Shown here: piece by piece, positions 22,272 to 45,160 of the stretch | Layout: each line of letters opens with the position of its first letter | How positions within the stretch are numbered: position 1 is the first letter of the stretch | Assembly (NCBI GenBank): GCA_016932495.1 | Contig: JAFGCR010000016.1 | Location: 1 to 45,160 of the forward strand | DNA from: Candidatus Peregrinibacteria bacterium | GTDB taxonomy: Bacteria > Patescibacteriota > Gracilibacteria > UM-FILTER-43-11 | Direction of reading: 5' to 3' | DNA: 45,160 bases | Position numbers and translations under genes: made by a program | Notes under the pieces: generated by a model | What the model was told of the DNA's origin: nothing | The model's database searches: none | The model's input: the letters and a program-made list of their open reading frames with translations, nothing else

Positions 22272-22437
22272 CTGGGCACCCAAACGGGGTCCCCGGAAAA
22301 TGCGAGACTGGTCCTGAACTTGTTTCAGGAGGTTATTTTCTGGGGCTGGGGTCCCAAAGCGAACGCATGCTGAAGAAGAGGCGACATAGTTTACGAAGGC
22401 GTATTCGTAAGCAAAAGTTCGTTTTGGGGTGGTGCCC
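22272..22437. repeat. Nested palindromic element downstream of tRNA-Leu
   Basis: Several hairpins are nested: TGGGCACC (22272 on) with GGTGCCCA of the tRNA 3' end; CCCCGGAAAAT with ATTTTCTGGGG; the perfect TCCTGAA-CTTGT-TTCAGGA; CCCAAAGCGAAC with GTTCGTTTTGGGG; and TTACGAA-GGCGTA-TTCGTAA. It occupies the 3' flank of tRNA-Leu on the minus strand and looks like a composite of REP units. Confidence 0.65.
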
Positions 22438-43284: not shown

Positions 43285-43371
43285 ATGCGCAGTATAGCAG
43301 ATTGGATTTGTGCAGACATCCGGAAAAATTTCCAGAATAGTTAATCAGATTTTCTGTTTATAGATGATGTT

Positions 43372-43399
43372 TTGACAAATAAAAGATTTTCATTAAAAT
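43372..43399 (+). promoter_or_regulatory. Sigma70-type promoter of the helix-turn-helix repeat gene
   Basis: TTGACA (43372-43377), 16-base spacer, TAAAAT (43394-43399; five of six). The ATG at 43420 would have a leader of about 14 bases. Same spacing as the promoters at 5759 and 40389. Confidence 0.7.
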
Positions 43400-43419: not shown

Positions 43420-45160
43420 ATGGTAAATCCATCTTATCAATCAGAGGTTTCAGAAATACGATTTCTAATTGGGGCCGCCAACACGCAGGAGCTAAGAAAT
43501 CAGGTTAGGACTAGAATTGCGGAATTAATTACAAACACCTCTGCTCTACTTTCTAAATTGGCGGAAGATTTGGGCTTTGATTTGGTAAAAAGCGGGAGGA
43601 GAAGGATAACACGATTGATGCTTGAAGAAGAATTAGAGAGGAGGTTTCCGCCCCTAAGAAATCCACAAGAAGATGAATTGCCTGTTCCAATTGAATTTGA
43701 AAAAAGGAATGAGATATTTTTACCACCTGAAACCCAAGAACCCAGAAGCGGAGAAAGCGAATTTGTACCACCCCGTGTTTTTCCTCGAACACGTTTGGCA
43801 ATTGAAGTATTGGAAAGAATGGGGTTGGATTTGAGTAATTGCATTTTTATGGAAGGTATTAATGTGCCAAATATGATGCGGACATTAAGCTATCGTGCCA
43901 TTGTAATAACTGAAATTCAAAAAGCTATCCTGGTTTGTGATGAAGAAAGAAATAAAACCTTTATTATCTATGAAAGTGAAAATATTGAGCGATACTATCG
44001 ATTGCGAAAAAATGAATTAAAGGATTTAAGTAGCCAGGGCATAGTAGCTGATTTAATTTGGTGCGAGCCTGAAAAATGGCAAGCAAGACTTGAAGATTTG
44101 CTGAGAAGCCGACCTGAACATATACAACCAGAAGAACCCCCAGAAGAAGTACCGGACGCTCCTGAGGGATGGATGACGAACTCTGCTCTTGCGCGGGAAA
44201 TAGGAGTAACCCACAGAGTAGTCAAAAGAATGGCGAAAGAGTATCGTGAAGAGCACCCAGAATGGTTTGTAAGATATAGGTTTGGGACAGGCAGAGGTCG
44301 TGGGTCATATGAACACTTTTCACCCGAATTATGTGACATTATTCGTGCAAGGATCAATGAATACGAAATAGCCCCCGAAGGCTGGATGACGAATAGCGCT
44401 TTGGTAAATGAATTGGAGGTAAGTGATACTTTGACTAAAAAAATAGCAAATAAATACCATGAAACGAATCCTGAATGGTCTGCAAGATATAGATTGAGGA
44501 CTGGTAAAAGTTACGAGGCATTTGTACATTACTCACCTGAATTATGTGACATTATTCGTGCAAGGATCAATGAATACGAAACAGCCCCCGAAGGCTGGAT
44601 GACGAATAGCGCTTTGGCAAATGAATTGGAGGTAAGTTATACTTTGACTAAAAAAATAGCAAATAAATACCGTCAAACCAATTCTGAATGGTTTAGGGAA
44701 TATAAGCATAAAATGGGTCACATTCGTGAGCATTATTCCCCTGAGCTATGCAATATAATTCGTGCAAGGATCAATGAATACGAAACAGCCCCCGAAGGCT
44801 GGCTGACGAATAGCACTTTGGCAAAAGGACTTGATGTCGATTGGACAACTATTCAAAAGTTGATACAACCTTATCGGCAAACCCATCCGCAATGGTTCGT
44901 AGTCTATAATATTAATGAACATTTTTCACCCGAATTATGTGACATCATTCGTACAAAAATAAATGAATACGAAACAGCCCCCGAAGGCTGGCTGACGAAT
45001 GGGGGGCTGGCTGATGAATTGAACGTGGCCAATGACACTACTAAAAGAAGGGCTGAAGTATATCGCAAAGAATATCCGGAATGGTTTAGGGAATATAAGA
45101 CTACTGGTAAAAAAGGAGGTGTAGTCCGTGAACATTTTTCACCCGAATTATGTGACATCA
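43420..45160 (+). CDS. Large protein with tandem helix-turn-helix-like repeats (3' end outside window)
   Basis: The frame from ATG at 43420 is open for 580 codons to the window end. Residues 1-110 are charged with a Pro/Glu-rich linker. About 110-235 form a folded domain (RAIVITEIQKAILVCDEERN, then KTFIIYESENIERYY and LIWCEPEKW) that I cannot assign. From residue 247 come five repeats of 71, 71, 68, 63 and at least 61 residues. Each has APEGW(M/L)TN, a helix LANEL-V, a variable second helix ending KYRQ-like, PEWF-Y, and HFSPELCDIIRARINEYE. The unit resembles a helix-turn-helix DNA-binding domain. Codons AGA, AGG and ATA are frequent, unlike the neighbours, so horizontal origin is possible. 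A DNA-binding array is an inference. Confidence 0.85.
   Translation, partial: MVNPSYQSEVSEIRFLIGAANTQELRNQVRTRIAELITNTSALLSKLAEDLGFDLVKSGRRRITRLMLEEELERRFPPLRNPQEDELPVPIEFEKRNEIFLPPETQEPRSGESEFVPPRVFPRTRLAIEVLERMGLDLSNCIFMEGINVPNMMRTLSYRAIVITEIQKAILVCDEERNKTFIIYESENIERYYRLRKNELKDLSSQGIVADLIWCEPEKWQARLEDLLRSRPEHIQPEEPPEEVPDAPEGWMTNSALAREIGVTHRVVKRMAKEYREEHPEWFVRYRFGTGRGRGSYEHFSPELCDIIRARINEYEIAPEGWMTNSALVNELEVSDTLTKKIANKYHETNPEWSARYRLRTGKSYEAFVHYSPELCDIIRARINEYETAPEGWMTNSALANELEVSYTLTKKIANKYRQTNSEWFREYKHKMGHIREHYSPELCNIIRARINEYETAPEGWLTNSTLAKGLDVDWTTIQKLIQPYRQTHPQWFVVYNINEHFSPELCDIIRTKINEYETAPEGWLTNGGLADELNVANDTTKRRAEVYRKEYPEWFREYKTTGKKGGVVREHFSPELCDI
44158..44370 (+). repeat. Array repeat 1 (71 codons)
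   Basis: Starts APEGWMTNSALAREIGV, putative recognition helix THRVVKRMAKEYRE, ends HFSPELCDIIRARINEYEI. It is the most divergent copy at DNA level in its first third. Confidence 0.85.
44371..44583 (+). repeat. Array repeat 2 (71 codons)
   Basis: APEGWMTNSALVNELEV, helix SDTLTKKIANKYHE, ends HYSPELCDIIRARINEYET. The first 100 bases are almost identical to repeat 3. Confidence 0.9.
44584..44787 (+). repeat. Array repeat 3 (68 codons)
   Basis: APEGWMTNSALANELEV, helix SYTLTKKIANKYRQ, ends HYSPELCNIIRARINEYET; the middle segment is three residues shorter than in repeat 2. Confidence 0.9.
44788..44976 (+). repeat. Array repeat 4 (63 codons)
   Basis: APEGWLTNSTLAKGLDV, helix DWTTIQKLIQPYRQ, short connector YNIN, ends HFSPELCDIIRTKINEYET. 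Confidence 0.9.
44977..45160 (+). repeat. Array repeat 5 (runs off window)
   Basis: APEGWLTNGGLADELNV, helix ANDTTKRRAEVYRK, connector with KTTGKKGG, ends at HFSPELCDI at the window edge; further repeats are likely. Confidence 0.85.

Follow-up and report, generated by a model that had tools for sequence, protein, structure and literature searches.

A predicted tandem winged helix-turn-helix array protein of Patescibacteria, proposed to bind DNA, with a constant N-terminal domain and exchanged repeat arrays

The array-protein gene and its contigs

We report the computational analysis of a gene at the end of a contig of a Candidatus Peregrinibacteria bacterium, whose genome comprises 1.175 Mb in 50 contigs. 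The DNA that was analysed, referred to here as the window (45,160 nucleotides), is the whole of one of these contigs, C30. It ends within a plus-strand open reading frame that begins with an ATG, extends for 580 codons and is still open at the contig edge, as the original prediction, made from the sequence alone, had stated. The same prediction assigned the gene its own promoter, and a putative sigma-70-like promoter does indeed precede the start codon (Table 1).

Table 1. Features of the array-protein gene in the window
Feature	Position	Strand	Evidence or remark
Sigma-70-like promoter, TTGACA-16-TAAAAT	43372-43399	+	consensus match at 11/12 positions; putative
Array-protein gene	43420..45160	+	3' end continues in contig C39 (L020 7277-7020, minus strand)
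Constant N-terminal domain, residues 91-230, alpha/beta, orphan fold	43690..44109	+	model pLDDT ~95, profile search
Unit 1, predicted MerR/RacA-like winged HTH, 71 aa	44158..44370	+	joined translation, AlphaFold model, unit alignment
Unit 2, 71 aa	44371..44583	+	joined translation, AlphaFold model, unit alignment
Unit 3, 68 aa	44584..44787	+	joined translation, AlphaFold model, unit alignment
Unit 4, 63 aa	44788..44976	+	joined translation, unit alignment
Unit 5, cut at contig end; 71 aa once completed from C39	44977..45160	+	33-base overlap, joined translation

Elsewhere in this genome, EGW units are found only at the end of contig C39, on the minus strand and in frame, and a comparison of contig ends revealed that C30 and C39 share an exact 33-base overlap. 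Joining the two contigs adds the rest of unit 5, a sixth unit and then a stop codon, some 85 codons past the end of the window, and gives a protein of about 655 amino acids with six units. Since both contigs break off within a repeat, where copies may have been collapsed, these values are minima; the proposed extension to a stop codon was achieved, and the accompanying repeat count is a lower bound. With a stop codon only one unit further on, the giant protein that had been envisaged is not supported. The size of 655 residues is plausible, as a relative encoded on a single contig, in a genome that recodes TGA (G046), has 698 residues and six units. Synteny argues neither for nor against the join, because the two proteins used to check it, RimO and a 180-amino-acid protein, sit on separate contigs in G009, G012 and G015, and the latter was not found in G001. 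Directly past the stop codon of the gene, and in the opposite orientation to it, C39 carries a cluster of tRNA-Thr, tRNA-Pro and tRNA-Pro (L020 6640-6942).

The gene has a GC3 of 0.333, versus 0.56-0.70 for seven other genes on the contig, and this atypical composition points to horizontal acquisition. No copy was found in G001 (88% complete), the other available genome from this genus. Homology between G001 and the window stops near position 43341, and the G001 contig ends soon after this point, so that absence from the exact site is not proven. Similar short stretches occur in the last 130 bases of L196 (the end of contig C7 of G001), at L020 5065-5106 on C39 and at 22282-22305 of the window, and are possibly copies of a small dispersed repeat.

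Predicted structure of the units and of the N-terminal domain

The five consecutive units of 63-71 residues that had been described for the window are all present, the fifth being completed from C39. Every unit opens with EGW[ML]TN, and those of the window run from AP-EGW[ML]TN to SPELCDII...NEYE. With a profile built partly from the window's own units, the units of this genome are matched at E-values of 7.5e-36 to 8.9e-27, and their tandem pattern is far beyond chance.

An AlphaFold model covering three units, calculated from an alignment of three sequences and having a mean pLDDT of 75 (moderate), predicts for each unit a short strand, the helix NSALAREI, a turn, the helix HRVVKRMAKEYREE, a wing strand and the helix SPELCDIIRARINEYE. 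This strand-HTH-wing-helix topology, a feature of the MerR-superfamily winged HTH, is predicted in all three of the modelled units. The best Foldseek match of a unit is the RacA DNA-binding domain, with a probability of 0.85-0.92 and an E-value of 0.3-0.6, which is not significant; the DNA-binding domains of RdfS excisionase, MerR-type proteins, BldC and Par rank below it, and none of these is significant singly. Together they are consistent with a winged HTH unit. In Pfam, the window protein matches OST-HTH weakly (1.9e-5) and HTH_29 (4.1e-5) and has no match to HA (PF03457), and among its relatives HTH_3 is matched in G046 (9e-6) and MerR_1 in G437 (E 4.7e-4, just below the Pfam cut-off). 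The model, the fold matches and the Pfam matches to HTH_3, HTH_29 and MerR_1 lend support to the helix-turn-helix units of the original prediction, and the predicted fold of each unit is a winged helix-turn-helix of the MerR/RacA/excisionase kind.

When the six units are compared, a single column, at the start of the second (recognition) helix, has six different residues (H, D, Y, W, N and F), and the linker DNA between the units is nearly identical. Over whole units the median pN/pS in this array is 0.44, and diversifying selection is thus not shown for the window array.

The N-terminal part had been left unassigned, and it has no match in Pfam. Within it lies a domain (Table 1) for which a model made from a 41-sequence alignment reaches a pLDDT near 95 across most of its length, and which has no match in PDB sequences, PDB folds or viral predicted structures either. 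Three of its residues are near-invariant in the 46 sequences compared, namely R154 (45/46), Y158 (46/46) and K197 (45/46), and from this conservation they are a possible active site or phosphate-binding site. Pfam finds neither a nuclease motif in the domain nor one of any other known enzyme. One protein with this domain, in G240 (L086 1085-3214, minus strand), has a weak match to OmpR-type Trans_reg_C at its C-terminal end (E 0.0063).

Distribution, array exchange and variation among relatives

Profile searches place the N-terminal domain in 36 of 353 genomes of the class and in five more among 380 genomes drawn from the phylum; a contig search with the whole protein gave no match and closer alignment gave 12 loci. 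The named records with the domain are from Peribacteria, Peregrinibacteria, Uhrbacteria and Microgenomates, with one bin labelled delta proteobacterium, so the view that the protein is special to one lineage was too narrow. The gene occurs in more than one copy in G308, G484 and G038. It is also kept in G046 (L022) and G080 (L078), both of which read TGA as a residue, and the family therefore crosses a genetic-code boundary within the class. No match was found in the viral contig, phage and plasmid collections searched, and an origin from such elements was rejected on that basis. Neighbouring genes were tabulated, as had been proposed, and none is conserved: the 40-odd homologues adjoin unrelated housekeeping genes, and the sole recurring type of neighbour is ABC proteins, in eight genomes. 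These neighbourhoods tie the gene to no operon, defence island or partner that would bear out the suggested defence, competence or chromosome-organising role. PADLOC, which covers known anti-phage defence proteins, returned a single weak match of 75 residues (E 0.0014) rather than one over most of the protein.

At the C-terminus nearly all relatives carry a tandem array, and the type of array differs between relatives. By their motifs we distinguish EGW, IYG, YF, HA, VLVW, LLGG, WYF and HTH11 arrays, plus a few that are unclassified, so that at least eight unrelated types are joined to one N-terminal domain. The HTH11 arrays match HTH_11 in Pfam at 5.6e-16, and the HA arrays, found behind this domain in two relatives (G191 and G246), match PF03457 at 1.8e-52. 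The exchange is visible between close relatives. In G046 and G080 the N-terminal parts are 69% identical over 282 residues and the arrays have no similarity, and in G244 and G246 they are 71% identical over 274 residues and the arrays (VLVW and HA, respectively) have no significant similarity. The sharing is moreover crossed, with a VLVW array common to G188 and G244 and an HA array common to G191 and G246. A tree of 46 N-terminal domains, in which the key branches are well supported, requires at least 16 changes of array type and places EGW arrays in three separate positions. The N-terminal domain is retained, and the repeats behind it are replaced by types unrelated to them.

This exchange, and the distribution, bear on whether the protein might regulate host transcription or organise the chromosome, with an array that would occupy one long fixed site or many sites on the cell's own chromosome and an N-terminal domain that senses or multimerises. 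Folds of the MerR, RacA, BldC and Par types are characteristic of regulators and segregation factors, and the weak Trans_reg_C match in G240, an N-terminal domain devoid of known enzyme motifs and a stand-alone gene with its own putative promoter would all fit such a role. For a protein acting on conserved host genes, however, the patchy presence in the class, the failure to find the gene in the sister genome, the atypical composition and the frequent replacement of the whole array would be odd, and we regard this explanation as rather unlikely.

The same arrays are found on other proteins. An SF2 helicase precedes EGW-like units in G017, IYG units in G026 and G255, and YF units in G253 and G034; Pfam was run on the helicase proteins of G017, G026, G253 and G255. 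The Patescibacteria helicases with C-terminal YF, IYG or EGW-like arrays (L167, L164, L171, L175 and L024) are of the SF2, ResIII/RadD/HsdR-like kind. In G007 and G253 there are proteins made of an array and little else. Several proteins of G010 (L172 and L173) have another N-terminal part followed by YF repeats, and one of them also carries HTH_26-like repeats (FGS.KFRRADFPPFGKG..). As these arrays follow SF2 helicases, array types that lack a Pfam match may be linked to nucleic-acid binding by association; for the IYG, YF, VLVW and LLGG repeats no DNA-binding fold is recognised, and they are called DNA-binding by association only. DNA binding by the protein itself is strongly suggested.

The helicases, as replication or restriction partners, also enter a reading in which the protein is a mobile-element component or decoy, whose repeats would recognise the termini or the origin of an element yet to be described. 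The array types shared with SF2 helicases, the horizontal movement of the gene and the predicted RacA/excisionase-like fold would agree with this, but conserved neighbours are generally absent and phages, plasmids and viral contigs yield no match, which leaves it only a slight probability.

The position of the variation among units is clearest in G484, where two adjacent genes (L177, on contig C19, 4561-7674 and 7842-9773, both on the plus strand) encode the same N-terminal domain followed by near-identical winged-HTH units, 12 in one protein and at least five in the other. Among the 15 units that can be compared, 27 of 57 columns are invariant, and most of the variation is contained in columns 16-17, where the recognition helix begins in the HTH_11 register, and in columns 37-44, the most variable of these (37, 39, 41 and 44) lying in the wing. 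At the most variable columns pN/pS is 1.8, versus 0.55 elsewhere; this value is biased upward, because the columns were picked by their variability, and only their location is independent evidence. A less biased hint of diversification may come from the HA arrays, where the closest pairs of units differ at far more nonsynonymous than synonymous sites (11 versus 1 and 13 versus 1 in G191), these counts being small. The G484 units appear to follow a pattern like that of the TALE RVDs, and the pattern is weaker in the window array. The proposal that the protein reads DNA unit by unit, in the manner of TAL effectors, gains support from relatives whose units vary mainly at the recognition-helix start and wing. 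Sequence specificity of the array is suggested by the location of this variation.

These data also weigh on the possibility that the arrays bind RNA or protein, the helix-turn-helix units serving as a scaffold. Some repeat types (IYG and YF) have no Pfam match, and OST-HTH/LOTUS, to which the window protein is weakly matched, is an RNA-linked winged HTH. Against this, HTH_11, HA and MerR-type arrays share the same N-terminal domain, helicases bear the same arrays and the variation falls at canonical DNA-contact positions; we consider RNA or protein binding improbable.

Comparison with known systems and proposed role

TALE repeats are two-helix units of 33-35 amino acids. The near-identical tandem units of G484, in which a few hypervariable positions are expected to face the DNA, recall TAL effectors and the TALE-like proteins (BurrH/BAT, MOrTL and STAR), but the units described here are predicted winged HTH domains of about 63-73 amino acids, the N-terminal domain is unrelated, the whole type of array is swapped and no code is known. 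KRAB zinc-finger proteins consist of a constant N-terminal domain and variable arrays of DNA-binding units. Our family resembles them in joining a constant N-terminal domain to variable arrays, predicted here to be of DNA-binding type, and differs in being bacterial, in lacking zinc fingers and in using several unrelated types of array. Because repeat length and fold differ, the family belongs to neither group. The HA arrays of bacterial SF2 helicases are likewise tandem C-terminal units, and two relatives have true HA arrays, but the units of the window are not HA and the window protein has no helicase. The DNA-binding domains of MerR, RacA, BldC and excisionases work as single domains in oligomers; they share the predicted topology of one unit and are its best fold matches, whereas here six units lie in one chain, and no solved structure is matched significantly by sequence.

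Tandem-repeat DNA-binding proteins are already known, and what is new here is that unrelated types of array are exchanged on a single prokaryotic domain. The main texts of a systematic screen for DNA-binding tandem repeats (PMC11417379) and of a TALE-inspired screen (PMC5472282) mention neither these bacteria nor HTH repeats. In the open-access literature on Gracilibacteria, Patescibacteria and Peribacteria, coverage of which is incomplete, we found no description of such HTH proteins or repeats.

The array, its predicted fold, the swapping of arrays, the variation at DNA-contact positions in one relative, the atypical composition and the patchy distribution were all shown computationally. The explanation that we favour, with moderate confidence, is that the gene stands alone, has spread horizontally and encodes a modular DNA-binding protein whose constant domain acts as an effector or recruiter. 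The tail would be a tandem winged helix-turn-helix array whose units would each use the recognition helix and the wing to contact a few base pairs and would together read an extended DNA site. Residues 91-230 would then be the effector or recruiting part, brought to the DNA by the array, and what this domain does once bound we can only infer. The gene family would move horizontally among Patescibacteria, with the array exchanged as a cassette and the N-terminal domain kept. Its likeliest use, proposed tentatively, would be to bind and silence or mark foreign or mobile DNA, much as vertebrate KRAB zinc-finger proteins do. A bolder and, in our judgement, doubtful proposal is that the family is a prokaryotic counterpart of those proteins, with an effector of new fold and exchanged, unrelated families of DNA-reading repeats engaged in an arms race with mobile DNA, and that at least one array type, the winged HTH with its hypervariable residue pair and wing, has a readable and programmable code. 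The pair of genes in G484 is the best system in which to test for a code.

Natural modular readers of DNA, such as zinc fingers and TALEs, are few and valuable. Here, ultra-small bacteria have one unstudied domain that comes with at least eight kinds of array, some of them clearly of a DNA-binding type, and the conserved domain, which has no recognised fold, gains a lead to its function. Two questions thereby become open to test: whether arrays of winged HTH units are readable and reprogrammable in the way that TALEs are, and how Patescibacteria, with their small genomes, control foreign DNA or their own.
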